Below, one piece after another: positions 19,704-48,335 of a stretch of DNA of 64,000 bases. This DNA comes from Crossaster papposus. Lineage: Eukaryota > Echinodermata > Asteroidea > Velatida > Solasteridae. The position numbers were made by a program, and so were the translations under genes. How positions within the stretch are numbered: position 1 is the first letter of the stretch; each line of letters starts with the position of its first letter. The notes under the pieces are model-generated. The model was not told where the DNA came from, did no database searches, and saw only the letters and a program-made list of their open reading frames with translations. The DNA lies in assembly GCA_037893245.1 (NCBI GenBank), contig JBAIAA010000009.1, positions 186,001 through 250,000 on the forward strand. The letters run 5' to 3'.

Positions 19704-21843
19704 TAGGCCTACAAACAAATTACTTTGCCTCCACAAACAAAACCAAAAGGCTCTTTTCAGGGCCACCACATAGTTACAAGAGAGAAACGCCGCTGTCTGT
19801 CTGTTCTTCATTTTTAAATAAAGTTTTAAAAGAGACAAATTTAGATAATACATGTGTAGATTTTAACTTTCACAGCCAAAGGCCCGCTGAGTTTGTTCAA
19901 TGGCTTCGTTTATTTTTTAAAGAATCGCCTTCCCTTTTCCTGCTTATAAAAATATTAAGAAAGTGTTTTTTGTCATCCGGGCGCGCGTGCGTTTTAACTT
20001 GTATCCCGGCGACCTTCATATAAAAACTAGTTCATTAAATATGCAACGCGCGCACTGTGACTTCAACAAAGCAAAAATAAATACGCGCTGTGTCTGTACT
20101 CTATAATTATATACATGTACTACGCGTACTGTACAGTACATGCATGTTCAGTTTGTAAAAGTACGTGAATGATATTATACCCGCGACCCAGCACATCAAA
20201 ATCAAGAATAAGTCGGAAAAAGACTTTCGGAGATATAAATATAATAAGATTGCAAATTCAATAAGCTTTTTAATGACATCCATCACAAGCCTTTAGCTCG
20301 GAAATTATTGGTTACGAGTTACAGACTGGGGATGGCTATCAATAGAAAGCCTATGGAATTTCAAATGTTACTATGTACATATCGTGAATTGTCATTTCCC
20401 GCTTATTATTGATTTTGATATCCTGGGTCACATTTTCATAGATTTAACAAAAACATTGGAAATGTGGTGAGTTGACACTTCGCGTGTGGTCTATTAGCTT
20501 TGTTTTCGTGTTCTGTCTTACCTGGGCCCAATTTCATAACAAATGTAAGCACAACAATTTGCTTAGCATGAAACATTTTCCTTGGCCAAACTGAAGATTT
20601 CCGAACACGTTTTATTGACGGTCGTGAATTCTCGTTAACGTTCGCGACTACAATTTCGACGTCTGGGTGTACACAATTAAATGGTCAGGCCATAGAACCA
20701 GACTATTTTCACCGCCCACAAAGTGGGACATTTAGGTTCTGCTTAAAAACAAATAAACCGGCCTGAACGGTAAACGATCGAGGCGCGGTTGTGCCGAAGG
20801 GCGCCATCTATCGGCACGCTCGTACCGGCAGGTCTGTGTGTATTTACAGCGGCGAGGCGCAGTGCAGCATGGCGATAATTTTGATACCAGTCGCATTTTT
20901 CCAGATTTTCAAGTGACTTTTGGTTAAAAAAAATGAATTTGTAAAAGAATATTGTCGATGTGTATGAAAATGTGTTATGAAAACCCCCCAAGCTCATGAA
21001 TATTGATGTAAATTAACGTGCCAAAAGTTGGTAATTTCTATAAACGGGTTTGCGTCGGGCTCTGTGAGAAGTCCTTTTCTTGACCCGAAATACACAAATT
21101 AGAAAAGTTAAAATAAGAATATTATTCGGATGAGAACAATGGGCGGGGGAATCAATTTGCATGCATAATTCCAGAGCGCCCTATTGGTTCAATGTCAATC
21201 GTTATCGCTTCTCGGCCTTTTGGCTAAGATCATGTGTATTTTTTTTGCTCCCGTGATCTTGAGGCGTAGTCAAGTTTTGTCGTACTAAACTGATATTTTT
21301 TGTATATCAGTTTATTCCGTTTGTTTTATAGACCAGGTTGGTCTTATTTTCGCCAAATTTCTCAGTATTTTTGGTTGTTGTTTTGGAGGTTTTTAGTTTT
21401 GTTTTTTGGTCGCTGGCTGTATACGCAGTGCGGTATCAGCCAGCGCCATTCGTTTACGTGCAGCCTTTGTTCCCCCCGTGTAAGTCCACGGGCCCATAGG
21501 TTTGCACGCGTTTCTTTGTCCGTCCCGTACAGTGTACGGCTTTTCCTTTGTTGTGCATTTACCCGTGGCGCTTACATAACACCAGTTGTGTGTGTGTAGT
21601 GCTACGGGTTTATCTATTTCTTTGTGTGCGTGGAGACAATAAGTCTTGCCTTCACGCCACTTTTTGTACATATATACTAGTGTCGTACATGTATGTACTG
21701 CGCTTGTATTTTTAATACATAGCGCTTATACATATATTGCTTTCTAGTTTAGCTGGACTAGGCAGTTGCTAGTCCAGCCTTTTTGTTTTAATACCCAGGA
21801 GGTTTTTTCCTTTCTTGGTATTTTGTTTGTGTTTATTTCCAGC

Positions 21844-23472
21844 ATGTCTGGAAATAATACTTCTAGTGCTAGGCGTCCCCGCGCTTTCGAACTTAGTTTC
21901 GATGGCAAGGAGACGCCTAGCGATGTCTTTAAGGTTCTCCGGGGGGTTGGGATTGTCCCGTCCACCCATCTGGAGGCCTTACAACCCCTTTCCGGCGGCC
22001 GGTTTGACCTCACGTTCAAATCGGCCGTCTTTGCTCGTCGTTTCGAGCTTGATCTGGACCAGCTTCCTGGGTGTCGAGTGACATCATTCGACCTGAAGCT
22101 GGTCTCAGTATATTATGTGGAGATGGATCTAGACGACAATGTCGTCAGATCCATTCTCTCTCAGTACGGCAGGGTCCATAAGGGTAGGTTTCTGACCTAC
22201 CCCGAGGAGCCTGCCGTATTTACTGGCACCCGGCAATACTTAATGTCGGGTGTCAGATCCATTCCCTCGGTTCTCCGCATCGGGAATCGCAATGCCTGGG
22301 TTGGCCACTCTGGTCAGACCCGGACTTGCGCCCGGTGCGGAAGCCCTGGCCACTCTGCAAGCAAATGTATCACCGTAAGGTGTTACAAATGCTTGCAGTT
22401 GGGTCATCCCTCCGGGGAGTGCCCCAACAAAGTGATGTGCACTTTCTGCGGGGACGAGGGGCACAGTTTTAAACTGTGCCCGAAGTCCTTCGCAAAGAGG
22501 GTGCGACCCACCAAACGGTGGGCAGATGTGGTGGTGCAGGGGAAATCTGCCCCTGCACAACATAAGGGGGAGGCTTCTCCGCCTCTTGAGGCGCCCACAC
22601 TTGTGGGCGCCGAGAAGGCGGTGAGCCCTTCCTCTTCTTCTAGCTCCGGGCCCGGTCTGTCGGGCTCGGAGACTGTAACGGTGTCCGATACCAATGTGGT
22701 ATCGGACTTCGAACTGCCTCGAGCACCGTGTATTCGGTGCTCGAAGGATGCCGGTCCTCTACGATCCGCGGAAGGGTGGCTTTGTTTCCACTGCAAACGC
22801 CGGATCGTGAGGACCGTTAAGTTCAACTTTGTCGGTTGCGACGGCTGCATGGGAGACGACGCGGAAATCGTTGTCTCTTGTGACACCGTTGGGTGTCAGG
22901 CCGCCGCGATCGATAGAGTTGTTCCTGCTGTCCCTGTATCAAAGAAGGGGAAGGCGAAGAAGAAGAAGAAGAGGTCGCGAGACCCTTCTTCTGACTCGGA
23001 TGCCCCCTCTTCCAAAATACAGGGAACTAACCTCTCGGACTCTCCGGAGTCGGAGATGGTGGTAGACGAGCCGATTGGCTCGTCTAAAGCCCCTATACCG
23101 GAGACCTCTGGTGAGCCTCTCCGGGGTGCCTCGTTTTACCTGGCCCGTCAGGCCCAGGACAAACTTGGTGGTCTAGTTGTCCCTGCTGGAGGATCGACGA
23201 CAACCTGCAATTTTGCGGGTTGCGGTGTCGATTTCCCGGGCTGGGAGCAAATTGTCGGTCACCGGCAGCAAGCCCACGGTTGTGAGACGTGGATTACGTG
23301 TCCGGTGTGTGTATTCAAGGCCGGCACGTCATTGATGTGGTTGAGCCATCTTGCCCGGGATCATACCCAGTATGTCCTGGACGTAGATGTGGCCGACCTT
23401 CAATCGTCGGTTAAAGTCGACGGATGTAGTTGGGTCCATCCAAAATGTGCTGGGCCCTTTTCAAGTACGTAG
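21844..23472 (+). CDS. ORF1/gag-like zinc-knuckle protein of element A1
   Basis: 542 aa from the ATG at 21844; an upstream in-frame ATG (21766) is not conserved in position among copies, while the MSGNNTSSARR start is. Residues 1-160 are an unassigned domain, RRM-like in character. Three CCHC knuckles follow: C162-C175, C180-C193, C199-C212 (each C-X2-C-X4-H-X4-C). An eight-Cys cluster lies at C296, C299, C314, C317, C332, C335, C346, C351; a Lys run near 368-377 may be a nuclear signal. The protein ends with two C2H2 fingers: C455/C460/H473/H478 and C486/C489/H502/H507. CCHC knuckles indicate RNA binding, as in ORF1p of L1/Tx1 elements; the C-terminal C2H2 pair could bind DNA. No RT or endonuclease domain. 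The open frame is intact. The ATG sits in the loop of a perfect hairpin. Confidence 0.85.
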   Translation: MSGNNTSSARRPRAFELSFDGKETPSDVFKVLRGVGIVPSTHLEALQPLSGGRFDLTFKSAVFARRFELDLDQLPGCRVTSFDLKLVSVYYVEMDLDDNVVRSILSQYGRVHKGRFLTYPEEPAVFTGTRQYLMSGVRSIPSVLRIGNRNAWVGHSGQTRTCARCGSPGHSASKCITVRCYKCLQLGHPSGECPNKVMCTFCGDEGHSFKLCPKSFAKRVRPTKRWADVVVQGKSAPAQHKGEASPPLEAPTLVGAEKAVSPSSSSSSGPGLSGSETVTVSDTNVVSDFELPRAPCIRCSKDAGPLRSAEGWLCFHCKRRIVRTVKFNFVGCDGCMGDDAEIVVSCDTVGCQAAAIDRVVPAVPVSKKGKAKKKKKRSRDPSSDSDAPSSKIQGTNLSDSPESEMVVDEPIGSSKAPIPETSGEPLRGASFYLARQAQDKLGGLVVPAGGSTTTCNFAGCGVDFPGWEQIVGHRQQAHGCETWITCPVCVFKAGTSLMWLSHLARDHTQYVLDVDVADLQSSVKVDGCSWVHPKCAGPFSST

Positions 23473-23547
23473 AGACTTTGTCTCTGGAGGGTCGGGCTGC
23501 GAAGCCCGCACCCGCACGCGTATATTCTTGTTTGTTTTTCTTTTGTC

Positions 23548-23607
23548 CAGAGAGTTAGGGTCGTACCCTACCATGGTGATGCGTGGGTAGCGTGGCTACA
23601 CTCTCTG
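23548..23607 (+). other. 3' UTR cloverleaf RNA element, A1 copy 1
   Basis: Sixty nt fold with no unpaired joints: outer stem CAGAGAGT/ACTCTCTG (8 bp) encloses three hairpins, TAGGGT-cgt-ACCCTA, CCATG-gtgatg-CGTGG and GTAGC-gtg-GCTAC. Loop sizes (3, 6, 3) do not fit a tRNA. It begins 76 nt after the ORF stop codon. A role in reverse transcriptase recognition is a guess. Confidence 0.75.
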
Positions 23608-23732
23608 TTTGTCCTTTTGATAGGAGTAGTGTCCTCTTTCAATAGGAGTAGCGTATATGACCTTTTAGGTCCATGTTGTTGTTTGTGAAATATTTGTCGT
23701 ATTGAGTGTTGATGGTACATTTCCGTTTCTGT

Positions 23733-23792
23733 CAGACAGTTAGGGTCGTACCCTTCCATGGTAACGCATGGGTAGCGTGGCTACACTGGCTG
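23733..23792 (+). other. 3' UTR cloverleaf RNA element, A1 copy 2
   Basis: Second copy in the same 3' UTR with paired changes that keep the fold: outer stem CAGACAGT/ACTGGCTG (G-C has become C-G; one A-G mismatch arises), and the middle hairpin is CCATG-gtaacg-CATGG (a U-G pair has become U-A). Confidence 0.75.
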
Positions 23793-23898
23793 CATGTCTT
23801 GTTCTTGTTTAGTGTTTGTTTCGTTTTTATAGATGTTAAAAAGGGCAGGGGGGCTCGTAGCCTCACGAACCTAGGTGTAGTGTGACTACCCTGTCCTA

Positions 23899-23922
23899 GG
23901 AGTTCTTCTTTAGGAAGACTCC
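23899..23922 (+). other. 3' terminal hairpin of element A1
   Basis: GGAGT-t-CTTC pairs with GAAG-ACTCC, 17 nt before the end of the element. Elements A2-A4 have an unrelated but equally placed hairpin (GGGGC-atttca-GCCCC), so the structure is kept while the sequence is not. Confidence 0.6.
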
Positions 23923-23942
23923 AAAACCATCAAAAATAAGTA

Positions 23943-23962: not shown

Positions 23963-24031
23963 CGTTATCGTTGATGCCCTACCGGAATACCTGGATATAA
24001 CCTGGATATAACCCTTCCTGATCTGGATATA

Positions 24032-27000
24032 ATGGAATATACTGCTGAAAGAGATACTTCACCTGATCGCCTCTGCACCCAACACTCCGTGGATGAATGC
24101 TCGGGCGCCCTTCGGGGCACCCGTAACACGGATGAGGGATCTTCCCCGGTTCTGACCCAACACTCTGTGGATGCATGCTCGGGAACCCTCCGGGGTGACC
24201 GTAACACAGATGAGGGTTCAGACCGGGGACGCAGCCACACCTGTGCGCTGTGTCAGAAGCCGCTCTCCACGGCTTCTGGCCTGCGGCGGCACATGGTGCG
24301 GATGCACCGGGAGGTTCCTGCTGAGGGCCCTGTCACCCTGACTGAAATATTTATGTATCCTCTGCCAAAGGAATGGCCATGCTTGGTGTGCCGGGAGTCT
24401 TTTTTTAACCGTCAAACTCTCCAGCGTCATCAGAAGAGAACTCACCCGGACACCGAGCTCACCACAGTTTTCCAGTGCTCGGTGTGTGGGCAGGAGTTTG
24501 ATATCCCGAGGAGAGCCGCCAACCACTACCAAGTCCACAAACGAACGTCTGCCACCACAATCTCTACGCCGCCGGAAACACCTTCGTCCCCAATGGACCT
24601 CATCCGAGGCCTGGTCGGCGAGCCACTACCAGCCTCACCTGCCCATCCACCGACGCCACCATTCCGGCCTCTCCAGCGGACAACCAACCCAACGCCCAGG
24701 TCAGCCAACCCACCGCCCCGGTCAGCCAACCAAACACCCCAGCCAGCCAGCAAACCTCCGCGGGCAGCCAGAGCACCGCCTCGGTCACCGAGCCCACCAC
24801 CAATGTCGCCGAGCCCACCACCCCAGTCAGCGAACCCGCCGCCCCGGTTAGCCAACCTGCCGCCCCGGTCAGACAACCCGCCGCTCCGGTCAGCCAACCG
24901 TCAGCCAGCCAGGAAACCTCGGCGGTCAGCCAGACCATCGATCCGGTCACCTAGCCCACCACCAAGGTCAGTGAACTCACCGCCCCGGTCAGCCAACCCA
25001 CCGCCCCGGCCAGCAAGCAAACCGCCGCGGTCAGCCAGACCACCGCTCCGGTCACCCAGCCCACCACCAAGGTCAGTGAACCCGCCGCCCCGGTCAGCCA
25101 ACCCACCGCCCCGGACAGCCAGCCTACCGCCCCGGTCAGCCAACCCATCGTCCCGACCAGCCAGCAAGCCGCCGCGGTCAGCCAGACCACCACTCCGGTC
25201 GCCCAGCCCACCGCCCCGGTCGCCCAGCCCACCACCCCGGTCACCCAGCCCACCGCCCCGGTCACCCAGCCCACTGCCACCAGCACCACACCCACCGAGA
25301 GGGCCAATACCAGCCCAGCCGCCTGCCCAGCCCCCACCTGACCCTGGTCACCCAACCGTGGAGCGTGAACCTCAACCAGCCCAACAGTCTGCAATTGACG
25401 AGTGGCTGGCTGAGCTTTCACGCTCGGATGATTTTCTTTCTTTTGAGTTTGTGTGTGACAGGTTTACTCAATTTGCTGCCACCGAGGGAAGGAACAATGG
25501 ACGCCCAGCTAGGCCAGCGCCACAGCCGGCCCGTGACAGGCCCCCTCGTGACCAGGCCCCCCGTGACCGGGCCCCTCGTGACAGACGCCCCCATCGCCGC
25601 GGGCTTGGACCAGAGTTCGACGCACAGGAGGCCAGTCGCCTGCAGAAACTGTACCGGACCAGCAGGAAGCGTGCCATGCGTACCATCATGGAAGGCTCCG
25701 ATGTCCGGTACAGCGGCGACGAGACCTCGCTGGTGGATTACTTCACCGACGTTTACTCCGCCCGTGAGGTCGACACCGACTCCATAGCAACAGACTGCCA
25801 CCTCCTGTTCCCAAACTCTGCCCAAGCCCGTGAGTCCGGCCAAGACCTGCTCCGCCCAGTCACCCAGCGTGAAGTCTCTCTACGTCTTGGCAGGATGTCC
25901 AACTCCGCACCAGGGAAGGACCGGTTGGAGTACCGCCACATCAGACAGGCCGACGGCGCTTTCCGTGTCACTGTGGCCATCTTCAACCGGTGCCTGCGTG
26001 AAAGCCGGGTCCCGTCCTCCTGGAAGTCAGCCACTACTGTTCTTATACACAAGAAGGGGGACCCTACCGACCCGGCCAACTTCCGCCCCATCGCCCTCCA
26101 GTCCTGCCTCTACAAGCTGCTGATGGCGATATTGTCCGACCGTGTTACCACATGGGCCTTGGACAATGAACTTATCAGCAGCTCGCAGAAGAGCGCCCGC
26201 CCCGGTGAAGGATGCTACGAGCACACGTTCCTGTTGTCCACCGTCGTGAAGGATGCCCGTCGAAACCAGAAAAACCTCAACGTAGCCTGGCTCGACCTCC
26301 AGAACGCCTTTGGCAGCATCCCTCACGACGCGATGTTCACCGTGCTTACCTCCATCGGGGCCCCGGAGGGCCTGGTATCCCTGGTGCGGGATATATACAC
26401 AGACGCCACCACCGACTTCGTCACACCCACCGGCCGCACTGCAGCAGTCCAGCTCCGCTCAGGCGTGAAGCAGGGCTGCCCCATCTCTCCCGTGCTGTTC
26501 AACCTGACGTTGGATTTACTCATCCGTGCAGTCTCTACCAAAGCAGCACGGGACCGCAGTGCGCCGGTGGTCCATGGCCAGGCCATCCCCATACTTGCGT
26601 ATGCGGATGACCTGGTCATACTCAGCCGATCTAGCGACCACCTGCAGAGTCTCCTGAGGGCCGCCTCCATCCTAGCGAACAAGCTCCAGCTGTCGTTCAA
26701 GCCAACAAAGTGTGCCACTTTAACCCTGGAGTGCCGACAGGGGACCAAGGTACGACCAACAGTCTTTACAGTGCAAGACCGCCCCATCCCAGCCCTGAGT
26801 GAGGAGCAGCACTACCGGTACCTTGGTGTCCCCATCGGCCTCTACCGCACCGACGACAGCCTGGAGAACTTGGTGACGAAGATGACGGATGACATCCGGC
26901 TCATCGAAGCCTCTCTGCTGGCACCCTGGCAGAAACTGGATGCCATCCGGACCTTTGTGCAGCCCTGCTTGGCCTACACCATGCGGGCGGGGGACTGCTT

Positions 27001-28228
27001 GAAGAAACATCTTCGTCAACTACGGGGACAGCTGGTGAAGACAGCACGTGCAGTATGCAACCTGCCCACCCGGGCCACCACAAACTACATCTTCGCAGAT
27101 CGTAGGGCGGGTGGCCTGGGATTTATCGACCCCAATGTCGATGCTGACATTCAAACCGTCACGCAGGCTGTACGCATGCTGTCTTCCCCTGATGACATCA
27201 CCAGAGCCATCGCCACCGGCCAGCTGTCCTCCGTAGTTCATCGCACCATCCACCGTGCACCGATGGAGGCGGAGATCGACATGTTCCTGACGGGGTCCAT
27301 GGAGGGAGACTTAGCCAACAGCGGGAACAGCGGACAGATCTCCTCCCTCTGGTCTAGAGCCCGGGCGGCGGCAAGACGTCTACAAGTCACCATCAGCGGC
27401 AGCCTTTCCGGTTCAGTGATTACCAAGTCAACAGAGAACCGGGAAATTGCTGCCAAGTCCATCACCGCCGCCCTGCGTGCAGCCAGCCGTGCCAAATACA
27501 CCAGCCGGCTGCTGTCGCTCCCGGACCAGGGGAAAGTTGGCAAGTCTCTCCACCAGGACTCCTACCTCAACGGGTCATCGTGGGTGAACTCCGGGAACTA
27601 CATCCGCTTCTGTGACTGGAGATTCATCCACCGCGCCCGACTCAACTGCCTACCGACCAACGCAACGGCGAAACGCTGGAACCCAAACACCAATCCAGCG
27701 TGCCGCCGTTGCAACTACCCTCAGGAGACCCTTCCCCACATCATTGACCACTGCCACCCGAACATGGTGCCAATTCGCCGCAGACACAACCTCATACAGC
27801 AACGAATCGTGTCTGCGGTCCGCCATGGAACGGTGTTCGTCGATCAACATGTGCCAGAGGATCCCCACCCCCGGGAGCGCCCAGACATCACGGTCGTCGA
27901 AGGCAACAAAGTCACCATAATTGATGTATGCTGCCCCTTCGACAACGGCCGTGATGCCTTGAAGATCGCCGCAGCCGCCAAGGAGACCAAGTATGCTGAC
28001 CTCAAGCAGACGCTGGTGGCTGCGGGCAAAGACGTCGAGGTGTTCGGATTTGCAATCGGAGCCCTGGGTTCCTGGTTGCCCACCAACGAACGAGCACTTC
28101 GACGTCTTGGAATCGCCAAGCGCTACCGGGGCCTGATGCGGAAACTGCTGTGCATCGACGCCATCAAGGGATCCCGAGACATATACATCGAGCACATGTG
28201 CGGACACCGCCAGTATGCCGAACAGTGA
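24032..28228 (+). CDS. Retrotransposon polyprotein: C2H2 fingers, RT, restriction-like endonuclease
   Basis: 1,398 aa. Residues 15-66 hold a 26-residue tandem duplication (CTQHSVDECSGALRG / LTQHSVDACSGTLRG). Three C2H2 fingers: C71/C74/H87/H92, C117/C120/H133/H138, C149/C152/H165/H169, expected to bind target DNA. Residues about 175-453 are a Pro/Arg/Ser-rich repeat linker. RT about 655-960: motif 0/1 WKSATTVLIHKKGD (W664) and NFRPIAL; QKSARPGEGCYEH; motif A WLDLQNAFG (D755); motif B VKQGCPISP (Q814); motif C YADD (857-860); motif E YRYLGVPIG. C-terminal CCHC: C1224/C1227/H1236/C1241. Endonuclease: RPD (D1285), D1298, then KETKY (K1317, K1320), the R2-type PD-D-K pattern. All catalytic residues are present. 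No RNase H or apurinic endonuclease domain seen. The first ATG follows an in-frame stop, so 24032 is the likely start. It would nick U2 and prime reverse transcription there. Confidence 0.92.
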   Translation: MEYTAERDTSPDRLCTQHSVDECSGALRGTRNTDEGSSPVLTQHSVDACSGTLRGDRNTDEGSDRGRSHTCALCQKPLSTASGLRRHMVRMHREVPAEGPVTLTEIFMYPLPKEWPCLVCRESFFNRQTLQRHQKRTHPDTELTTVFQCSVCGQEFDIPRRAANHYQVHKRTSATTISTPPETPSSPMDLIRGLVGEPLPASPAHPPTPPFRPLQRTTNPTPRSANPPPRSANQTPQPASKPPRAARAPPRSPSPPPMSPSPPPQSANPPPRLANLPPRSDNPPLRSANRQPARKPRRSARPSIRSPSPPPRSVNSPPRSANPPPRPASKPPRSARPPLRSPSPPPRSVNPPPRSANPPPRTASLPPRSANPSSRPASKPPRSARPPLRSPSPPPRSPSPPPRSPSPPPRSPSPLPPAPHPPRGPIPAQPPAQPPPDPGHPTVEREPQPAQQSAIDEWLAELSRSDDFLSFEFVCDRFTQFAATEGRNNGRPARPAPQPARDRPPRDQAPRDRAPRDRRPHRRGLGPEFDAQEASRLQKLYRTSRKRAMRTIMEGSDVRYSGDETSLVDYFTDVYSAREVDTDSIATDCHLLFPNSAQARESGQDLLRPVTQREVSLRLGRMSNSAPGKDRLEYRHIRQADGAFRVTVAIFNRCLRESRVPSSWKSATTVLIHKKGDPTDPANFRPIALQSCLYKLLMAILSDRVTTWALDNELISSSQKSARPGEGCYEHTFLLSTVVKDARRNQKNLNVAWLDLQNAFGSIPHDAMFTVLTSIGAPEGLVSLVRDIYTDATTDFVTPTGRTAAVQLRSGVKQGCPISPVLFNLTLDLLIRAVSTKAARDRSAPVVHGQAIPILAYADDLVILSRSSDHLQSLLRAASILANKLQLSFKPTKCATLTLECRQGTKVRPTVFTVQDRPIPALSEEQHYRYLGVPIGLYRTDDSLENLVTKMTDDIRLIEASLLAPWQKLDAIRTFVQPCLAYTMRAGDCLKKHLRQLRGQLVKTARAVCNLPTRATTNYIFADRRAGGLGFIDPNVDADIQTVTQAVRMLSSPDDITRAIATGQLSSVVHRTIHRAPMEAEIDMFLTGSMEGDLANSGNSGQISSLWSRARAAARRLQVTISGSLSGSVITKSTENREIAAKSITAALRAASRAKYTSRLLSLPDQGKVGKSLHQDSYLNGSSWVNSGNYIRFCDWRFIHRARLNCLPTNATAKRWNPNTNPACRRCNYPQETLPHIIDHCHPNMVPIRRRHNLIQQRIVSAVRHGTVFVDQHVPEDPHPRERPDITVVEGNKVTIIDVCCPFDNGRDALKIAAAAKETKYADLKQTLVAAGKDVEVFGFAIGALGSWLPTNERALRRLGIAKRYRGLMRKLLCIDAIKGSRDIYIEHMCGHRQYAEQ
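24077..24226 (+). repeat. 78-bp tandem duplication at the start of the element B ORF
   Basis: acccaacactc(c/t)gtggatg starts at 24077 and again at 24155; the copies have diverged at several bases but stay in frame (26 codons). Confidence 0.8.
24560..25390 (+). repeat. Pro/Arg/Ser-coding imperfect repeats in element B
   Basis: Degenerate repetition of units like ccaccgccccggtcagccaa, coding PPPRSAN, PPPRSPS and KPPRSARP. Almost no other amino acids occur over about 280 codons. The antisense strand is also open here by composition only. Confidence 0.8.
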
Positions 28229-28677
28229 CACTTCCCCCTACCAGGGACTTAAACCACCACTACGCTGGTATGCCAGTAACCGCCGCCAACCACCAGGATC
28301 AGTAGAACATTGAACTCTAATTTAATTAAACCTTCCCATCGGCTGTCGGCTGCTGGTTCACGTGCGTGGCGTGGCTCGGTGTGAACTTCCCCTGAGCGTT
28401 GCCCATGGATTTATTCCTCCAATGAGTTTGTTTACCTTGGTTTAAATCATGTGGGCGGCGCTCTGGTTTTGTTTACGCCTGGGTCATGTTGCGGTTGTGT
28501 GTTCCAGCCAGCTGACAGCCCCCTCTTCTCATTTTGTGTGACAGCAGTAATCACTCCTTTGTGTTTGCCGGGAAGAGATCCTCTGCAATTTTAATCTCCG
28601 AGTCTCTCCCTGGCCAACTCAATGGGTGGTCGCTGATGTCCACAACTGTTTTGTACATGTAACACTTTTATATTTTG
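28229..28677 (+). other. Proximal 3' UTR of element B
   Basis: No reading frame and no obvious repeat; it joins the ORF stop codon to the tandem repeats. Confidence 0.6.
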
Positions 28678-29630
28678 CCGTTATCTCGGCCAGCACTCAT
28701 CTATTTGTGTTCGCCGTGGACAGACACTTTGCGGTTTTCTCACCCTGAGTCTGTCTGCGGTTGACCCACTGGTTGAGTGCTGTGCCACTATTTACATTTT
28801 CGTGCTCACAGTTTACTGTTATGATGGCCAGTATTCGCCCTTTGTATACGCTGCGACTGGCCTCTGCGGTTCTCCGCACTGGATCAGCCTGCGGTTGATG
28901 CACTGGGCGAGTGCTGCGCCACTGTTTACATTTACATGTACTTGCTTACAGTTTACCGTTATGCTGGTCAGTGTTCGCCTTTTGTATTCTCGGCGGGCAG
29001 ACTCTCTGCGGTTTCCCGCACTGAGTCTGTCTGCGGTTGATGCACTGGGCGAGTGCTGTGCCACTATTTACATGTTCTTACTTAATGTTTACCGTTATGA
29101 CGGCCAGTATTCGCCCTTTGTATTCTCCGCGGGCAGACTCTCTGCGGTTTCCCGCACTGAGTCTGTCTGCGGTTGATGCACTGGGCGAGTGCTGTGCCAC
29201 TATTTACATGTTCTTACTTAATGTTTACCGTTATGATGGCCAGTATTCGCCCTTTGTATTCTCCGCGGGCAGACTCTCTGCGGTTTCCCGCACTGGGTCT
29301 GTCTGCGGTTGATGCACTGGGCGAGTGCTGTGCCACTATTTACATGTTCTTACTTAATGTTTACCGTTATGACGGCCAGTATTCGCCCTTTGTATTCTCG
29401 GCGGGCAGACTCTCTGCGGTTTCCCGCACTGAGTCTGTCTGCGGTTGATGCACTGGGCGAGTGCTGTGCCACTATTTACATGTTCTTACTTAATGTTTAC
29501 CGTTATGATGCCCAGTATTCGCCCTTTGTATTCTCCGCGGGCAGACTCTCTGCGGTTTCCCGCACTGGGTCTGTCTGCGGTTGATGCACTGGGTGAGTGC
29601 TGTGCCATTGTTTACTTTTATGTTTACCTA
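28678..29630 (+). repeat. 136-bp tandem repeat, seven copies, in element B 3' UTR
   Basis: Copies start at 28678, 28816, 28956, 29092, 29228, 29364 and 29500, each beginning c(c/t)gttat and including tgtctgcggttgatgcactg. The first two are divergent and slightly longer (138 and 140 bp); the last five are exactly 136 bp or nearly so and differ by few bases. The period is not a multiple of three, so the overlapping 91-codon frames are artefacts. Confidence 0.93.
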
Positions 29631-29829
29631 AGTTCACACTTCTTATTCGATCCTGGTGGCTAACTATTATTAATGTTCCTATTTACGTTTTTGTTTTAAT
29701 GGAGACTCATATAATCTACTTGTATAATGTTTACTCTTATGTTCAATACCCCCTTTCGTAGCGGTTTTTTTTATAATCGTATCTTGTTCAATTTCTGTAT
29801 CTTGTTTGATGAATATTTTAATAAACCAC

Positions 29830-34540: not shown

Positions 34541-36677
34541 TAGGCCTACAAACAAATTACTTTGCCTCCACAAACAAAACCAAAAGGCTCTTTTCAGGGC
34601 CACCACATAGTTACAAGAGAGAAACGCCGCTGTCTGTCTGTTCTTCATTTTTAAATAAAGTTTTAAAAGAGACAAATTTAGATAATACATGTGTAGATTT
34701 TAACTTTCACAGCCAAAGGCCCGCTGAGTTTGTTCAATGGCTTCGTTTATTTTTTAAAGAATCGCCTTCCCTTTTCCTGCTTATAAAAATATTAAGAAAG
34801 TGTTTTTTGTCATCCGGGCGCGCGTGCGTTTTAACTTGTATCCCGGCGACCTTCATATAAAAACTAGTTCATTAAATATGCAACGCGCGCACTGTGACTT
34901 CAACAAAGCAAAAATAAATACGCGCTGTGTCTGTACTCTATAATTATATACATGTACTACGCGTACTGTACAGTACATGCATGTTCAGTTTGTAAAAGTA
35001 CGTGAATGATATTATACCCGCGACCCAGCACATCAAAATCAAGAATAAGTCGGAAAAAGACTTTCGGAGATATAAATATAATAAGATTGCAAATTCAATA
35101 AGCTTTTTAATGACATCCATCACAAGCCTTTAGCTCGGAAATTATTGGTTACGAGTTACAGACTGGGGATGGCTATCAATAGAAAGCCTATGGAATTTCA
35201 AATGTTACTATGTACATATCGTGAATTGTCATTTCCCGCTTATTATTGATTTTGATATCCTGGGTCACATTTTCATAGATTTAACAAAAACATTGGAAAT
35301 GTGGTGAGTTGACACTTCGCGTGTGGTCTATTAGCTTTGTTTTCGTGTTCTGTCTTACCTGGGCCCAATTTCATAACAAATGTAAGCACAACAATTTGCT
35401 TAGCATGAAACATTTTCCTTGGCCAAACTGAAGATTTCCGAACACGTTTTATTGACGGTCGTGAATTCTCGTTAACGTTCGCGACTACAATTTCGACGTC
35501 TGGGTGTACACAATTAAATGGTCAGGCCATAGAACCAGACTATTTTCACCGCCCACAAAGTGGGACATTTAGGTTCTGCTTAAAAACAAATAAACCGGCC
35601 TGAACGGTAAACGATCGAGGCGCGGTTGTGCCGAAGGGCGCCATCTATCGGCACGCTCGTACCGGCAGGTCTGTGTGTATTTACAGCGGCGAGGCGCAGT
35701 GCAGCATGGCGATAATTTTGATACCAGTCGCATTTTTCCAGATTTTCAAGTGACTTTTGGTTAAAAAAAATGAATTTGTAAAAGAATATTGTCGATGTGT
35801 ATGAAAATGTGTTATGAAAACCCCCCAAGCTCATGAATATTGATGTAAATTAACGTGCCAAAAGTTGGTAATTTCTATAAACGGGTTTGCGTCGGGCTCT
35901 GTGAGAAGTCCTTTTCTTGACCCGAAATACACAAATTAGAAAAGTTAAAATAAGAATATTATTCGGATGAGAACAATGGGCGGGGGAATCAATTTGCATG
36001 CATAATTCCAGAGCGCCCTATTGGTTCAATGTCAATCGTTATCGCTTCTCGGCCTTTTGGCTAAGATCATGTGTAGCTTTTTTGCTCCCGTGATCTTGAG
36101 GCGTAGTCAAGTTTTGCCCTGCTAAACTGATATAATTTTTATACCAGTTTGTTCCTTTTTGTTTATAGACCAGGTTGGTCTTGTTTTCGCCGAATTTCTT
36201 CGGATTTTTGGTTGTTGTTTTGGAGGTTTTTGGTTTGGTTTTTTGGTCGCTGGCTGTATACGCAGTGCTGTAGCAGCCAGCGCCATTCGTTTTCGTGCAG
36301 CCTTTGTTCCCCCCGTGTAAGTCCACGGGCCCATAGGTTTGCACGCGTTCCTTTGTTCTTTCCGTACAGTGTACGGCGTTTCCTTTGTTGTTCATTTACC
36401 CGTGGCGCTTACATAACACCAGTTGTGTGTGTAGTGCTACGGGTTTTTCCTATTTCTTTGTGTGGGTGAAGGCAATAAGTCTTGCCTTCACGCCATTTTT
36501 GTATATACAACAGTGTTGTATATGTGCCGCGCTTGTATTTTGTTTTATACATAGCGCGTGTGCTTATACTTTACTTTCTTGTTTTGCTGGACTAGGCAGT
36601 TGCTAGTCCAGCCTTGTTTTAATACCCAGGAGGTTTTTCCTTTCTTGGTATTTTGTATTCTTTGGTTTATTTCCAGC

Positions 36678-38327
36678 ATGTCTGGAAATAATACTTCTAG
36701 TGCTAGGCGTCCCCGCGCTTTCGAACTTAGTTTCGATGGCAAGGAGACGCCTAGCGGTGTCTTTAAGGTCCTCCGGGGGATTGGGATTGTCCCGTCCGCC
36801 CACCTGGAGGCCTTACAACCCCTTTCCGGCGGCCGGTTTGACCTCACGTTCAAATCGGCCGTCTTTGCTCGTCGTTTCGAGTTTGATCTGGACCAGCTTC
36901 CTGGGTGTCGAGTTACATCCTTCGACATGAAGCTGGTCACAGTGAATTATATAGAGATGGATCTTGACGACAATGTCGTCAGATCCATTCTCTCTCAGTA
37001 CGGCAGGGTCCATAAGGGTAGGTTTCTGACCTACCCCGAGGAGCCTGCCGTATTTACTGGCACCCGGCAATACTTAATGTCGGGTGTCAGATCCATTCCC
37101 TCGGTTCTCCGCATCGGGAATCGCAATGCCTGGGTCGGCCACTCTGGTCAGACCCGGACTTGCGCCCGGTGCGGAAGCCCTGGCCACTCTGCAGGCAAAT
37201 GTATCACCGTAAGGTGTTACATATGCTTGCAGTTGGGTCATCCCTCCGGGGAGTGCCCCAACAAAGTCATGTGCACTTTCTGCGGGGACGAGGGGCACAG
37301 TTTTAAACTGTGCCCTAGGTCCTTCGCAGAGAGGGTGCGACCCGCCAAGCGGTGGGCAGATGTGGTGGTGCAGGGGAAATCTGCCCCTGCACATCATAAG
37401 GGGGAGGCTTCTCCGCCTCTTGAAGCGCCCACACTTGTGGGCGCCGAGGGGGCGGCAAGCCCTTCCTCTTTTTCTAGCTCCGGGCCCGGTCCGTCGGGCT
37501 CGGAGACTGTAACGGTGTCCGATACCAATATGGTATCGGACTTCGAACTGCCTCGAGCACCGTGTATTCGGTGCTCGAAGGATGCCGGTCCTCTACGATC
37601 CGCGGAAGGGTGGCTTTGTTTCCACTGCGACCGCTGGATCACGAGGACCGTTAAGTTCAGCTTTGTCGGTTGCGGCGGCTGCATGGGAGACGACGCTAAG
37701 GCTGTTGTCTCCTGTGACGCCGTTGAGTGTCAGGCCGCCGCGATCGAGAAAGCTGTTCCTTTTGTCCCTGTATCAAGGAAGGGGAAGGCGAAGAAGAAGA
37801 AGAAGAGGTCGCGAGACCCTTCTTCTGACTCAGATGCCCCCTCTTCCAAAATACAGGGAACTAACCTCTCGGACTCTCCGGAGTCTGAGATGGTATTAGA
37901 CGAGCCAATTGGCTCGGTTAAAGCCCCTACCGGCCCCCCCCACATCGTTGGTGGCGCCGGGGTGGAGGTAACACCGGAGTCTTCTGGTGAGCCTCTCCGG
38001 GGTGCATCGTTTGACCCGGTCTGTCAGGCCCAGGACAAACTTGATGGTCTAGTTGTCCCTGGTGTAACTGGGAGGATGACCTGCAACTTTGAGGGTTGCG
38101 GTGTCGATTTCCCGGGCTGGGGGCAAATGGTCGACCACCGGCGGATGGCCCACAGTTCTAAGACGCGGGTTCGGTGCCCGGTGTGTAGAGTTAAGGCCGT
38201 GACGCCAGATATTTGGTTGGCCCATCTTGCCCAGGATCATACTCAGTATGTCCTGGACATAGATGTGGCCGTCCTTCAATCGTTGTTTAAGGTCAGCGGA
38301 TGTAAATGGGTCTTTTCGACCCTTTAG
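36678..38327 (+). CDS. ORF1/gag-like zinc-knuckle protein of element A2
   Basis: 549 aa from the hairpin-loop ATG; the same domain order as in A1. Compared with A1 it has an extra segment around GPPHIVGGAGVEVTP before the C-terminal fingers and ends KVSGCKWVFSTL. The second knuckle reads CYICLQLGH: Ile replaces the basic residue (Lys in A1/A3, Arg in A4), which might weaken RNA contact. Confidence 0.85.
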   Translation: MSGNNTSSARRPRAFELSFDGKETPSGVFKVLRGIGIVPSAHLEALQPLSGGRFDLTFKSAVFARRFEFDLDQLPGCRVTSFDMKLVTVNYIEMDLDDNVVRSILSQYGRVHKGRFLTYPEEPAVFTGTRQYLMSGVRSIPSVLRIGNRNAWVGHSGQTRTCARCGSPGHSAGKCITVRCYICLQLGHPSGECPNKVMCTFCGDEGHSFKLCPRSFAERVRPAKRWADVVVQGKSAPAHHKGEASPPLEAPTLVGAEGAASPSSFSSSGPGPSGSETVTVSDTNMVSDFELPRAPCIRCSKDAGPLRSAEGWLCFHCDRWITRTVKFSFVGCGGCMGDDAKAVVSCDAVECQAAAIEKAVPFVPVSRKGKAKKKKKRSRDPSSDSDAPSSKIQGTNLSDSPESEMVLDEPIGSVKAPTGPPHIVGGAGVEVTPESSGEPLRGASFDPVCQAQDKLDGLVVPGVTGRMTCNFEGCGVDFPGWGQMVDHRRMAHSSKTRVRCPVCRVKAVTPDIWLAHLAQDHTQYVLDIDVAVLQSLFKVSGCKWVFSTL

Positions 38328-38430
38328 GTCTTTTTATAGGAGTATTGTACTCTTTTTAATAGGAGTATCGTTTATGACTGTTTAGGTCTTGTAGTGGATA
38401 GTATGTATTTTGTTTGTATACGTTCTATGG

Positions 38431-38490
38431 CAGAGAGTTAGGGTCGTACCCTACCATGGTAATGCGTGGGTAGCGTGGCTACACTCTCTG
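38431..38490 (+). other. 3' UTR cloverleaf RNA element, A2
   Basis: Single copy with outer stem CAGAGAGT/ACTCTCTG. Upstream, ataggagta occurs twice (about 38337 and 38362) with a small GAGTA-ttg-TACTC hairpin. Confidence 0.72.
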
Positions 38491-39521
38491 TCTGTACCGT
38501 CCTGTTTTAGTGTTTTGTGAGTTTTGTATTCCGGTTACGGGCAGGGGGGCTCGAGACCCCACAACACTGTAGTTCGGCGATTTGGTAAGTCGACCTGTCC
38601 GGGGCATTTCAGCCCCAAATCAAAAAACAGTATCTGTTCTTTTCAGCTTAATATCTGAAACGCTGTTCATCGAACAGCCAGTATATTAATCTGATTTTTG
38701 GATTTGGGCCGTGGAATAGAGGCTTGCCTCGTCCCGGCCATGGGTTGGCCCGGTATAGCAGTACATCCGGGATTCGGCCCACTCCCCTCGGGGAACATCA
38801 ATTAATACAAAAACAGGTCTCGTCTATTATGTGTATTCCTATGTCGCCTCACTTTTACAAGTTCTTTCTTCGCTTTACTTCGTGGCTTTCTTATATTTGA
38901 ACATTTCAATTTGTCTCAATTAAATAATTGTATGAAGACCGATCTCTTTGTTTTAGGTTGATTTCTGAAGAAAGGGAAAAACAACAACAACAAAAACAAA
39001 CAAACAAACAAACAAACAAACAAACAGATCCTCTGCGACTGGTTGTATTTTTTTTTGGCGAAGATGTATTAGATTTCTTTATCTTTTCCATATTTTTAGA
39101 AATTCATATGATTTCATATAAATGTAGACTTTAAATGTTCTTTTTGTTTTTGGTCTTGTTTGTTTGAATTCCATTTTTGTTCTAAATACTGTATAGGTAA
39201 TAATGCAGGGCCCTTTTTTATAGCTTTTTTTTTTGTAAGTGATAAAACCTCAAATACAATAAATAACAGTGCTTTTAACAGTTCAGTTTTTATGTTTGTA
39301 TTTTAATGTTGCGATTATTCGTTTGCTTGCTTTCCTCTCTCTCTCTCTCTCGTTGACTGTTTATTTCTCCTCTCGTGTCGTTATTTCGGGAGGGAAACCT
39401 CTGCCACGATTTGTTGCTAGAGGGCGCCCTGACTTTCGTTTGCCTGGCGTGCTCCTATCGCGTCCGCGCATAGCAGTGATATATAATACACTGCCTCGCC
39501 CATTCAATCGATCTAGTCTAG

Positions 39522-43343: not shown

Positions 43344-45491
43344 TAGGCCTACAAACAAATTACTTTGCCTCCACAAACAAAACCAAAAGGCTCTTTTCAG
43401 GGCCACCACATAGTTACAAGAGAGAAACGCCGCTGTCTGTCTGTTCTTCATTTTTAAATAAAGTTTTAAAAGAGACAAATTTAGATAATACATGTGTAGA
43501 TTTTAACTTTCACAGCCAAAGGCCCGCTGAGTTTGTTCAATGGCTTCGTTTATTTTTTAAAGAATCGCCTTCCCTTTTCCTGCTTATAAAAATATTAAGA
43601 AAGTGTTTTTTGTCATCCGGGCGCGCGTGCGTTTTAACTTGTATCCCGGCGACCTTCATATAAAAACTAGTTCATTAAATATGCAACGCGCGCACTGTGA
43701 CTTCAACAAAGCAAAAATAAATACGCGCTGTGTCTGTACTCTATAATTATATACATGTACTACGCGTACTGTACAGTACATGCATGTTCAGTTTGTAAAA
43801 GTACGTGAATGATATTATACCCGCGACCCAGCACATCAAAATCAAGAATAAGTCGGAAAAAGACTTTCGGAGATATAAATATAATAAGATTGCAAATTCA
43901 ATAAGCTTTTTAATGACATCCATCACAAGCCTTTAGCTCGGAAATTATTGGTTACGAGTTACAGACTGGGGATGGCTATCAATAGAAAGCCTATGGAATT
44001 TCAAATGTTACTATGTACATATCGTGAATTGTCATTTCCCGCTTATTATTGATTTTGATATCCTGGGTCACATTTTCATAGATTTAACAAAAACATTGGA
44101 AATGTGGTGAGTTGACACTTCGCGTGTGGTCTATTAGCTTTGTTTTCGTGTTCTGTCTTACCTGGGCCCAATTTCATAACAAATGTAAGCACAACAATTT
44201 GCTTAGCATGAAACATTTTCCTTGGCCAAACTGAAGATTTCCGAACACGTTTTATTGACGGTCGTGAATTCTCGTTAACGTTCGCGACTACAATTTCGAC
44301 GTCTGGGTGTACACAATTAAATGGTCAGGCCATAGAACCAGACTATTTTCACCGCCCACAAAGTGGGACATTTAGGTTCTGCTTAAAAACAAATAAACCG
44401 GCCTGAACGGTAAACGATCGAGGCGCGGTTGTGCCGAAGGGCGCCATCTATCGGCACGCTCGTACCGGCAGGTCTGTGTGTATTTACAGCGGCGAGGCGC
44501 AGTGCAGCATGGCGATAATTTTGATACCAGTCGCATTTTTCCAGATTTTCAAGTGACTTTTGGTTAAAAAAAATGAATTTGTAAAAGAATATTGTCGATG
44601 TGTATGAAAATGTGTTATGAAAACCCCCCAAGCTCATGAATATTGATGTAAATTAACGTGCCAAAAGTTGGTAATTTCTATAAACGGGTTTGCGTCGGGC
44701 TCTGTGAGAAGTCCTTTTCTTGACCCGAAATACACAAATTAGAAAAGTTAAAATAAGAATATTATTCGGATGAGAACAATGGGCGGGGGAATCAATTTGC
44801 ATGCATAATTCCAGAGCGCCCTATTGGTTCAATGTCAATCGTTATCGCTTCTCGGCCTTTTGGCTAAGATCATGTGTAGCTTTTTTGCTCCCGTGATTTT
44901 GAGGCGGAGTCAGGTTTTGTCGTGTTAGGCTGATATATTTTGTATACCAGTGTATTCCTTTTGGTTTATAGACCAGGTTGGTCTTATTTTCGCCAAATTT
45001 CTTTGGATTTTTGGTTGTTGTTTTGGAGGTTTTTAGTTTTGGTTTTTGGTCGCTGGCTGTATACGCAGTGCTGTAGCAGCCAGCGCCATTCGTTTACGTA
45101 CAGCCTTTGTTCTCCCCGTGTAAGTCCACGGGCCCATAGGTTTGTACGTCTTTCTTTGTCCGTCCCGTACAGTGTACGGCTTTTCCTTTGTTGTGCATTT
45201 ACCCGTGGCGCTTACATAACACCAGTTGTGTGTGTGTAGTGCTACGGGTTTATCTATTTCTTTGTGTGCGTGGAGACAATAAGTCTTGCCTTCACGCCAC
45301 TTTTTGTACATATATACTAGTGTTGTATATGGGTGTACTGCGCGTGTATTTGTTTTTAATACACAGCGCGTGTGCATACATTGCTTTCTAGTTTAGCTGG
45401 ACTAGGCAGTTGCTAGTCCAGCCTTTTTTTTTAAATACCCAGGAGGTTTTTTCCTTTCTTGGTATTTTGTATTCTTTGGATTATTTCCAGT

Positions 45492-47141: not shown

Positions 47142-47244
47142 GTCTTTTTATAGGAGTATTGTACTCTTTTTAATAGGAGTATCGCTTATGACTGTTTAGG
47201 TCTTGTAGTGGATAGTATGTTTTTTGTTTGTATACGTTCTATGG

Positions 47245-47304
47245 CAGAGAGTTAGGGTCGTACCCTACCATGGTAATGCGTGGGTAGCGTGGCTACACTC
47301 TCTG
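47245..47304 (+). other. 3' UTR cloverleaf RNA element, A3
   Basis: Same sequence as the A2 copy, all four stems intact. Confidence 0.72.
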
Positions 47305-48335
47305 TCTGTACCGTCCTGTTTTAGTGTTTTGTGAGTTTTATATTCCGGTTACGGGCAGGGGGGCTCGAGACCCCACAACACTGTAGTTCGGCGATTTGGT
47401 AAGTCGACCTGTCCGGGGCATTTCAGCCCCAAATCAAAAAACAGTATCTGTTCTTTTCAGCTTAATATCTGAAACGCTGTTCATCGAACAGCCAGTATAT
47501 TAATCTGATTTTTGGATTTGGGCCGTGGAATAGAGGCTTGCCTCGTCCCGGCCATGGGTTGGCCCGGTATAGCAGTACATCCGGGATTCGGCCCACTCCC
47601 CTCGGGGAACATCAATTAATACAAAAACAGGTCTCGTCTATTATGTGTATTCCTATGTCGCCTCACTTTTACAAGTTCTTTCTTCGCTTTACTTCGTGGC
47701 TTTCTTATATTTGAACATTTCAATTTGTCTCAATTAAATAATTGTATGAAGACCGATCTCTTTGTTTTAGGTTGATTTCTGAAGAAAGGGAAAAACAACA
47801 ACAACAAAAACAAACAAACAAACAAACAAACAAACAAACAGATCCTCTGCGACTGGTTGTATTTTTTTTTGGCGAAGATGTATTAGATTTCTTTATCTTT
47901 TCCATATTTTTAGAAATTCATATGATTTCATATAAATGTAGACTTTAAATGTTCTTTTTGTTTTTGGTCTTGTTTGTTTGAATTCCATTTTTGTTCTAAA
48001 TACTGTATAGGTAATAATGCAGGGCCCTTTTTTATAGCTTTTTTTTTTGTAAGTGATAAAACCTCAAATACAATAAATAACAGTGCTTTTAACAGTTCAG
48101 TTTTTATGTTTGTATTTTAATGTTGCGATTATTCGTTTGCTTGCTTTCCTCTCTCTCTCTCTCTCGTTGACTGTTTATTTCTCCTCTCGTGTCGTTATTT
48201 CGGGAGGGAAACCTCTGCCACGATTTGTTGCTAGAGGGCGCCCTGACTTTCGTTTGCCTGGCGTGCTCCTATCGCGTCCGCGCATAGCAGTGATATATAA
48301 TACACTGCCTCGCCCATTCAATCGATCTAGTCTAG

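Follow-up and report, generated by a model that had tools for sequence, protein, structure and literature searches.

An ORF1-only retroelement in U2 snRNA genes of Crossaster papposus and the probable selection of its RNA for folding

Mobile elements within the U2 genes

The window analysed is a 64,000 nt stretch of Crossaster papposus contig JBAIAA010000009.1 (186,001-250,000, forward strand), which carries histone clusters and U2 snRNA genes. An Rfam scan of the whole window at E 0.1 matched only U2 and histone stem-loops, and a tRNA search returned none. Intact U2 copies elsewhere in the window match the model in full (1-192 of 192); the gene interrupted by A1 gives a partial match (21204-21312) of 39.8 bits, below the cut-off of 46, and its U2 letters restart after the insertion at 23939 with AGTATCTG.

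21204..21238, + strand: nucleotides 1-35 of the U2 snRNA gene upstream of A1, where the match to uninterrupted repeats stops
21239..23938, + strand: element A1, 2700 bp, inside the U2 gene (U2-gene junctions)
36076..38628, + strand: element A2, 2553 bp (U2 junctions)
44879..47442, + strand: element A3, 2564 bp (U2 junctions)
59942..62494, + strand: element A4, 2553 bp (U2 junctions)
21844..23472, + strand: ORF1-type protein of A1, 542 aa, without reverse transcriptase (RT) (ORF translation, Pfam, copies)
22321..22488, + strand: zinc-knuckle (CCHC) region of the ORF, one of the strongly folded stretches of the RNA (Pfam, windowed z)
23963..29829, + strand: element B, Utopia-like, in the U2 remnant after A1 (RT and C2H2 fingers, 20-bp target duplication)

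The presence of element A in U2 snRNA genes, and its lack of a reverse transcriptase, are absent from the preliminary description of this DNA. Further copies were picked by their best ORF matches (80 of 1137 candidates scored), a choice biased to intact copies. Among the family A sequences obtained, 63 of 64 (61 distinct places) are flanked on both sides by U2 at a single insertion point, and the remaining one (L031) reaches the end of its contig. Family members measure 2.5-2.7 kb. At the A junction U2 restarts with AGTA (nt 35-38), letters which can also belong to the element. By eye the copies look mosaic, A3 resembling A1 in parts and A2 elsewhere. Known RNA families and ribozymes matched A1 only below the families' cut-offs, and 59 pattern matches to viral contigs yielded none that was confirmed.

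A full-length ORF (542-562 aa) was found in 54 of the 54 distinct A copies read. The A1 protein shows, by eye, three CCHC knuckles and, close to its C-terminus, two C2H2-like motifs; Pfam zf-CCHC matched two stretches at E 6.7e-4 and 20.1 bits, slightly below the cut-off of 20.8, and we take the CCHC architecture to be like that of Tx1-clade ORF1. No ORF for an APE endonuclease or an RT-type ORF2 occurs in A1-A4, and the other copies read have no room for one, as a length of 2.5-2.7 kb leaves no space for an RT ORF beside ORF1. Family A thus combines an ORF1, no RT and several like copies, as HAL1-like elements do. Measured from A1, dN/dS is 0.71-1.20 in the last part of the ORF. An AlphaFold model of the ORF, built using the four copies in the window, had a mean pLDDT of 27 and was set aside.

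Other insertions share the U2 genes. Element B has a single ORF (24032-28228) encoding an RT with N-terminal C2H2 fingers (RVT_1, E 6.7e-33), a 20 bp target duplication (23943-23962 and 29830-29849) and a U2 3' flank which restarts at nt 39; a PD-like motif near its C-terminus was seen by eye only. The accessible part of PMC4640811 states the same 3' flank, from nt 39, for both Keno and Utopia, and reports 20-bp target duplications for reptile Utopia families. Element C is a second ORF1-only element inside a U2 gene, its ORF1 sharing 38% identity over 141 aa with that of A; its start codon lies 12 nt past the last U2-matching base, a position in keeping with U2-driven transcription. A 0.5-kb RT-less element shares its 3' end with A (folding z -4.0), and Rfam found in it only the U2 flanks and one sub-threshold match. 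A partner RT was absent among 20 further junctions read, which comprised 11 A copies, eight copies of the 0.5-kb element and one of C. A 4-kb insertion (L061), tried as the RT partner, was rejected since it looks like the 0.5-kb element interrupted by a long inverted-repeat element.

Stems, hairpins and folding energy of element A

The preliminary description had reported consecutive perfect inverted repeats through the A1 ORF, 14 with coordinates (13 and one nested). All 14 are present; perfection held for only ten, two others containing one G-U pair and two a one-base bulge.

21868..21921, + strand: stem 21868-21877/21912-21921, perfect
22057..22104, + strand: stem 22057-22066/22095-22104, perfect
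22125..22152, + strand: stem 22125-22137/22141-22152, one-base bulge
22165..22218, + strand: nested stems 22165-22173/22210-22218 and 22182-22189/22195-22202, perfect
22223..22256, + strand: stem 22223-22232/22247-22256, one G-U
22459..22481, + strand: stem 22459-22469/22471-22481, perfect
22534..22558, + strand: stem 22534-22542/22550-22558, perfect
22590..22611, + strand: stem 22590-22599/22602-22611, perfect
22644..22671, + strand: stem 22644-22654/22661-22671, one G-U
22683..22707, + strand: stem 22683-22693/22697-22707, perfect
22719..22744, + strand: stem 22719-22728/22735-22744, perfect
22752..22816, + strand: stem 22752-22768/22801-22816, one bulge
23063..23086, + strand: stem 23063-23072/23077-23086, perfect in A1; most other copies have a shorter one
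21239..21843, + strand: 5' UTR of A1, hairpin-rich (windowed z, RNAalifold consensus)
21833..21857, + strand: hairpin whose loop holds the start codon, TTATTTCCAG-CATGT-CTGGAAATAA (variants across 54 distinct copies)
23548..23803, + strand: two units in the 3' UTR, 85% alike (23548-23618, 23733-23803), predicted multi-hairpin junction (direct repeat, consensus fold)
23843..23922, + strand: structured domain at the 3' end, GGGCAGGG ... CCCTGTCC, followed by a terminal hairpin (consensus fold; GGGCAGGG/CCCTGTCC pairing by eye)

In the predicted fold the innermost pair opens in stems with one- or two-base loops (22459, 22590). The 5' UTR, said earlier to show the same pattern, does so in eight of ten sense windows (starts 21239-21779; z < -2), one window reaching +0.83. 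Variants of the start-codon hairpin across the 54 distinct copies include G-U pairs and double changes, with two exceptions of five copies each, one variant predicted to fold otherwise and another with an internal mismatch. The 3' terminal domain of A1 is common to the 0.5-kb element, and a second version, differing in sequence, is found in A2-A4.

A1 contains 26 non-overlapping Watson-Crick helices of at least 7 bp (229 pairs), 14 of them of at least 9 bp, against 3-6 (22-45 pairs) and 0-2 in ten dinucleotide shuffles; natural 2.7-kb stretches gave 11 and 14 helices in B and 7 and 12 in histone DNA. In 120-nt windows the mean z was -3.46 sense and -3.22 antisense for A1 (43 windows), -3.08 and -3.34 for A3 (41 windows), -0.71 and -0.75 for B (39 windows) and -0.01 and 0.02 for the histone region (37 windows), with A2 and four further copies (L019, L023, L044, L046) between -3.4 and -4.4. 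The strongest A1 sense window starts at 22139 (z -9.57), and windows 22379 and 22439 in the CCHC part reach -6.99 and -7.40 sense and -4.53 and -8.89 antisense. Fragments of 350 nt had an energy excess over dinucleotide shuffles of 38.2% in A1, 36.9% in A2 and 35.7% in L044, the fourteen A1 fragments covering its whole length at z -3.0 to -17.0. Eight LINE ORFs of the genome, several from one family and all A+T-richer than A, had 2.9% overall (range -0.5 to 5.0%). The contrast first drawn with the histone genes and element B stands for the former (-1.5% at 350 nt, z about 0), but B is not unstructured, its excess of 13.4% being weak beside A.

The comparison with codon- and dinucleotide-preserving shuffles, proposed with the preliminary description, bore it out: the ORFs of A1 (z -15.1) and A3 (z -14.2) were each reached by none of 40 shuffles, and histone ORFs treated alike gave sense-strand z of -0.1 to 1.5. 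Only the high G+C of the A ORF speaks for an artefact of base composition or codon use; with no shuffle in 40 reaching the native energy at z -15, and element C at G+C 0.56 gaining only 12.6%, we consider it vanishingly improbable. Windowed z, codon-preserving shuffles and helix counts likewise led us to reject a chance or compositional origin of the stems.

Some 59 terminal hairpins are predicted in the 2700 nt of A1. Their number, the zinc-knuckle ORF1p that A encodes, the position of the start codon within a loop and the six short UUCG hairpins that L023 has, and that all 22 other representatives lack, could also describe many discrete sites rather than a bulk fold, each hairpin binding ORF1p as a dispersed packaging signal in an assembly code. 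Stem lengths and loops differ, however, and we hold this possible at a fairly low probability.

Evolution of the paired sites

Single departures from pairing in helices of at least 6 bp were G-U in 88 cases and A-C in 41 (53 and 25 for at least 7 bp), counts that take in overlapping pairs and are not fully independent. On the stems of A1, A2 and L044 alone the ratios were 25:10, 25:11 and 22:14, against 210:184, 204:194 and 196:194 for the matching classes outside those stems; the 3' 900 nt with more diverged copies gave 62:45, which is not significant. A tree null, in which the G-U share was 0.65 against 0.68 observed (16 of 100 nulls as high at 7 bp, 7 of 100 at 6 bp), was rejected as unsuitable since it fixes which columns vary, and the asymmetry thus rests on the comparison with sites outside stems.

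Within 150-nt bins, 65 of 468 ORF stem sites were variable against 88.8 +/- 6.7 expected (0 of 2000 permutations as low), as were 23 of 160 third codon positions (36 +/- 4 expected, p 0.001) and 11 of 76 4-fold sites (15.2 expected, p 0.07). UTR stems were not less variable. Sliding the stem mask by 25-60 nt gave a variable fraction of 0.196-0.246, against 0.195 in stems and 0.304 outside stems overall, and the low variation is therefore partly regional. Covariation, which the preliminary description had made a test of its claim, was found in the larger copy set: at 14 pairs the copies differ in Watson-Crick type, where a tree null gives 7.5 +/- 2.3 (14 reached by 1 of 100), so that compensatory changes modestly exceed this null. 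In stem 22752 the pairs 22763-22806 and 22768-22801 vary in Watson-Crick type among copies, and pair changes occur at 23736-23789 and 23737-23788 in the 3' UTR unit.

The energy excess of A is equally strong on the antisense strand. This symmetry, the mostly perfect Watson-Crick stems, the partly regional low variation, the tandem arrays in which the elements lie and the mosaic look of the copies all agree with palindromes at the DNA level, arising by template-switch or quasi-palindrome correction or kept for tandem-array recombination, with the RNA fold a by-product. A strand-blind process is however not expected to favour G-U over A-C by 88 to 41, third codon positions in stems are less variable within bins, the start-codon stem tolerates G-U, and histone DNA in the same array has a mean z near 0; we regard this origin as unlikely. 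Less probable again is an inherited relic under no present selection, its low variability left by gene conversion and a recent spread: the representatives of the clusters are 85-98% alike and dS from A1 is 0.04-0.14 over the first 900 nt of the ORF, but the binned and tree-based tests stay significant, sense-biased wobble is not expected of a relic, and in more diverged copies an excess of 11-22%, weaker though still clear, persists in the 3' 900 nt.

The sense RNA of A is thus likely the object of selection, though both strands show the same energy excess: G-U exceeds A-C, and paired ORF sites are less variable within bins. The hairpins go far beyond those of shuffles and of the mobile elements used for comparison, and this suggests selection on the RNA fold itself. 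The initial proposal of a folded RNA object, resembling the genome-scale ordered RNA structure (GORS) of some RNA viruses, survived the shuffle and covariation tests. On balance, and with appreciable doubt, we read family A as a non-LTR retroelement that resides in U2 genes, encodes ORF1 but no RT, and has a sense RNA selected for folding along its length, the ORF included.

A possible life cycle and its relation to known systems

In the cycle we propose, the host U2 promoter would co-transcribe a U2(1-35)-A RNA, which would be translated into ORF1p from the start codon in the hairpin loop and then be coated by ORF1p. An RT acting in trans, from a Keno-like element or Utopia B, might recognise the 3' structured domain shared with the shorter RT-less element and copy the RNA into the U2 gene near nt 38/39. 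The likeliest role of the fold as a whole would be to hold so long and unusual a transcript in a compact, stable form that antisense silencing reaches poorly, which agrees with the shielding role put forward for GORS of RNA viruses.

Like HAL1, A encodes only ORF1p, so its RT would come from elsewhere. HAL1 is described in the accessible part of PMC5753468 as a non-autonomous L1 derivative encoding only ORF1p; A differs in lying inside U2 genes (copies with flanks read), in its full-length ORFs (distinct copies read) and extreme predicted folding, and its parent element was not found. With the APE-encoding Keno it shares the U2 target, and its 3' flank is compatible with nt 39 if the element owns AGTA, yet the A copies read have neither endonuclease nor RT. 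The RLE-encoding Utopia uses the same target gene with a compatible 3' flank, whereas A lacks an RT and encodes a different protein, the Utopia-like element here being B.

Pervasive ordered RNA structure is, to our knowledge, known mainly from RNA viruses, and narrow literature searches, over sources available in part, found no publication on it in retroelements. As in GORS viruses, consecutive stem-loops run through the coding sequence of A, with a whole-length energy excess over dinucleotide shuffles and coding structure beyond codon use; unlike them, A is an integrated cellular retroelement in U2 genes and no RNA virus genome. Less variable paired sites, reported for these viruses in the accessible text of PMC7642675, are seen in A for the ORF within bins but not for the UTRs, and the slid-mask values make part of this regional. 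The same text quotes genome means up to 23.4%, and 36% and more for short viral regions; at 36-38% over 2.7 kb, the mean of A lies above the highest genome mean quoted there for vertebrate RNA viruses.

We offer only tentatively, as a rather doubtful idea, that residence in snRNA genes selects for folded RNA, U2-promoter transcripts of this kind being long and outside the normal mRNA route, and that A, a near-continuous hairpin array with a gag-like protein, may be a virus-like packaged RNA. On this idea the separate U2-resident elements would have become structured (A 36-38%, B 13.4%, C 12.6%, the 0.5-kb element z -4.0), against 2.9% in the LINE ORFs compared. Several elements of U2 genes lack an RT, and one must ask what copies them. 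With many copies bearing full-length ORFs, with relatives at this site that fold less strongly and with LINEs that hardly fold, family A offers a natural comparison for the purpose of such a fold, be it escape from silencing, stability of a message that lacks ordinary mRNA ends or its packaging by a gag-like protein.

Family A in U2 snRNA genes

The tandem histone repeat in the window has a unit of 6249 bp and holds one U2 snRNA gene per unit, identified by Rfam at 182 bits for each of the four uninterrupted window copies. The hairpin-rich family A elements A1, A2, A3 and A4 share an identical insertion point within this gene, and behind A1 the same gene is broken a second time by a Utopia-like reverse transcriptase (RT) element:

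21239-23938: element A1, with U2 nt 1-35 on one side and the remainder of U2 on the other
23963-29829: element B, Utopia-like, 3' of A1 within that interrupted U2 gene

Element B has a 20-bp target duplication, and U2 picks up again at nt 39, as is likewise stated for Utopia in a passage of PMC4640811.

When the A1 ORF was searched against the window's genome (1.02 Gb in 1841 contigs), 80 of 1137 candidates were scored, and these were 83-100% identical to the query. Sixty loci together with A1-A4, representing 61 of the 80 scored places, made a set of 64 sequences; U2 flanks both sides at the same point in 63, and the other (L031) ends with its contig. The set collapses to 54 distinct sequences in 23 clusters (minimum identity 0.85), and the ORF, an ORF1 that may be Tx1-like, is uninterrupted at 542-562 aa in all 54, though as the set was drawn from the best matches broken copies may go unseen. 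A perfect 10-bp hairpin (21833-21857) carries the start codon of A1 in its loop; most variants retain this hairpin via G-U or double changes, and one variant (five copies) is predicted to adopt another fold. The 3' UTR of A1 contains a multi-hairpin unit present twice, and the 3' terminal domain of the family exists in two versions dissimilar in sequence.

On G000 contig C136 (814962-834854) four U2 junctions recur at intervals of 5965-5969 bases, and two of them follow A ORF matches; this spacing is shorter than the histone unit plus A, and perhaps marks amplification of a U2-A unit that lacks a complete histone set. On the reverse strand of locus L087, the first 378 bases, upstream of an A 3' part, are unlike A and by eye rich in AACCC-type repeats, possibly another insertion.

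Strength of the predicted fold

The preliminary description had A elements as consecutive stem-loops running through the ORF, and suggested that the RNA itself is folded as in some RNA viruses. All 14 stems it had located in A1 were found, ten of them perfect, two with one G-U and two with a one-base bulge. Windows of 120 nt, each set against 30 dinucleotide shuffles, gave A1 a mean z of -3.46 sense and -3.22 antisense (z < -2 in 81% of 43 sense windows), A3 -3.08 and -3.34, and copies A2, L019, L023, L044 and L046 -3.4 to -4.4; element B gave -0.71 sense and -0.75 antisense, and the histone region about 0. Codon- and dinucleotide-preserving shuffles of the ORFs, which hold the protein and every dinucleotide count constant, placed native A energy far below the controls: A1 folded at -52.6 kcal/mol per window vs. 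-38.4 +/- 0.94 shuffled (z -15.1, none of 40 shuffles reaching native) and A3 at z -14.2 (0/40), with the sense strands of the H3, H2A and H2B ORFs at z -0.1 to 1.5. The element B ORF reached z -8.1 (0/12), yet the difference was only 8%.

Folded whole (span 150), A1 reached -1200 kcal/mol vs. -817 to -849 in six shuffles. The fold has 59 terminal hairpins, roughly one every 46 nt, and 59-64% of A1's pairs recur when six other copies are folded individually. Among the strongest rivals to a fold selected in bulk is that discrete hairpins dispersed along the RNA are binding sites for ORF1p.

Computed on 350-nt fragments with 20 shuffles, the energy excess of A1 was 38.2% (43.8% antisense), that of A2 36.9% and that of L044 35.7%, compared with 13.4% for element B (moderate folding, z down to -6.1), -1.5% for histone DNA and 2.9% overall (range -0.5 to 5.0%) for eight LINE ORFs from this genome, several of one family and every one A+T-richer than A. 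Sections of PMC7642675 give genome means of 7.5-10.7% for HCV, 12.5% for human pegivirus and ~15% for SARS-CoV-2, 23.4% being the top genome mean on record there for a vertebrate RNA virus, with single regions attaining 36% and one peak >50%; the A fragments are fewer and wider-spaced than in that comparison.

Substitutions in stems

The other of the strongest rivals is that the stems are DNA-level palindromes, and the energy excess of A is equal for sense and antisense strands. A G-U change retains the sense-strand pair; A-C would retain the antisense pair. Where three or more of the 23 representatives support a pair, helices >=6 bp showed 88 single departures of the G-U kind and 41 of the A-C kind (53 and 25 in helices >=7 bp). 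With the stems of one copy alone the ratio was 25:10 (A1), 25:11 (A2) and 22:14 (L044), and matching change classes off stems were near-even (210:184, 204:194 and 196:194, respectively). The GU share was 0.68 vs. 0.65 in a tree-based null, which cannot test this asymmetry because it fixes which columns vary.

Covariation in the larger copy set modestly exceeded that null: 14 pairs showed more than one Watson-Crick type, vs. 0-5 after sliding partners and 7.5 +/- 2.3 on the tree (1/100 as high), rising in helices >=6 bp to 24 vs. 15.0 +/- 3.7 (2/100). Within 150-nt bins, 65 of 468 paired ORF sites were variable vs. 88.8 +/- 6.7 expected, as were 23 of 160 third positions in ORF stems (36 +/- 4 expected). 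Four-fold stem sites taken by themselves missed significance (11 of 76 vs. 15.2 expected, p 0.07; unbinned p 0.036), and UTR stems showed no reduction in variability. With the stem mask shifted by 25-60 nt, the fraction of variable sites was 0.196-0.246 vs. 0.195 in true stems and 0.304 off stems, and the low variation is therefore partly regional, which slightly lowers confidence in a selected fold. In the last 900 nt, with nine more diverged copies added (energy excess of these copies 11-22%), 26 pairs were multi-type vs. 10-14 for slides, and GU:AC was 62:45, not significant. Measured from A1, dN/dS was 0.19-0.53 over the opening 900 nt of the ORF and 0.71-1.20 over its remainder.

We interpret these substitution patterns to mean that the sense RNA is under selection, with the ORF giving the best support and the element's last third weaker support. 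The earlier interpretation of a folded RNA gains support, qualified by the strand-equal energy excess, the partly regional low variation and the weaker last third.

Other elements at U2 sites and a model for family A

A scan for the U2 3' junction (<=1 mismatch) returned 861 matches, intact U2 included, and among the matches listed 20 further junctions were read: 11 diverged A copies, eight of a short element or close variants and one new element (C). No autonomous RT-encoding partner of A was found among these 20.

L062:697-1219: short U2 element, 523 bp, RT-less; also at L074, L083-L085, L091 and L092
L094:4390-5401 plus L079:1-904 (G000 C9, about 499990-501903): element C, ORF1-only, ~1.9 kb, in a U2 gene

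The short element (L062) carries a UUCG hairpin array and has its 3' domain in common with A; it folds at z -4.0, and inspection by eye reported no ORF. L080 and L082 resemble variants of it, and a 3.4-kb foldback element with long inverted repeats (L061:1415-4857) sits within a 0.5-kb U2 element. The A copy L023 has six short UUCG hairpins, at least part of them in the 3' UTR, found in none of the other 22 representatives, and resembles a recombinant of A with the 0.5-kb element.

Element C encodes a 499-aa protein with CCHC knuckles (Pfam zf-CCHC, E 5.3e-13, three stretches within a 321-aa piece), and its ORF matches that of A at 38% identity across 141 aa (E 3e-26). The start codon lies 12 nt past the last U2-matching base, leaving a 5' UTR after the U2 head of nearly nil, and energy excess is 12.6% sense and 8.0% antisense. 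G000 contig C8 (>5 Mb) carries dozens of RTs with open frames of ~442 aa and scores alike, comparable in size to group II intron proteins, and may be a bacterial symbiont.

From the location, ORF, predicted fold and substitution patterns of family A, which are directly established, we lean somewhat towards a U2-resident, ORF1-only retroelement that takes RT in trans via its 3' domain and in which selection acts on the RNA fold as a bulk property. The U2 promoter would drive transcription, the transcript would be translated into ORF1p, RT supplied in trans would copy the RNA through its 3' domain, and the fold may serve some purpose in bulk. Neither ORF1-only non-LTR elements nor U2-targeted ones are new; what stands out in family A is the hairpin make-up of nearly the entire message.
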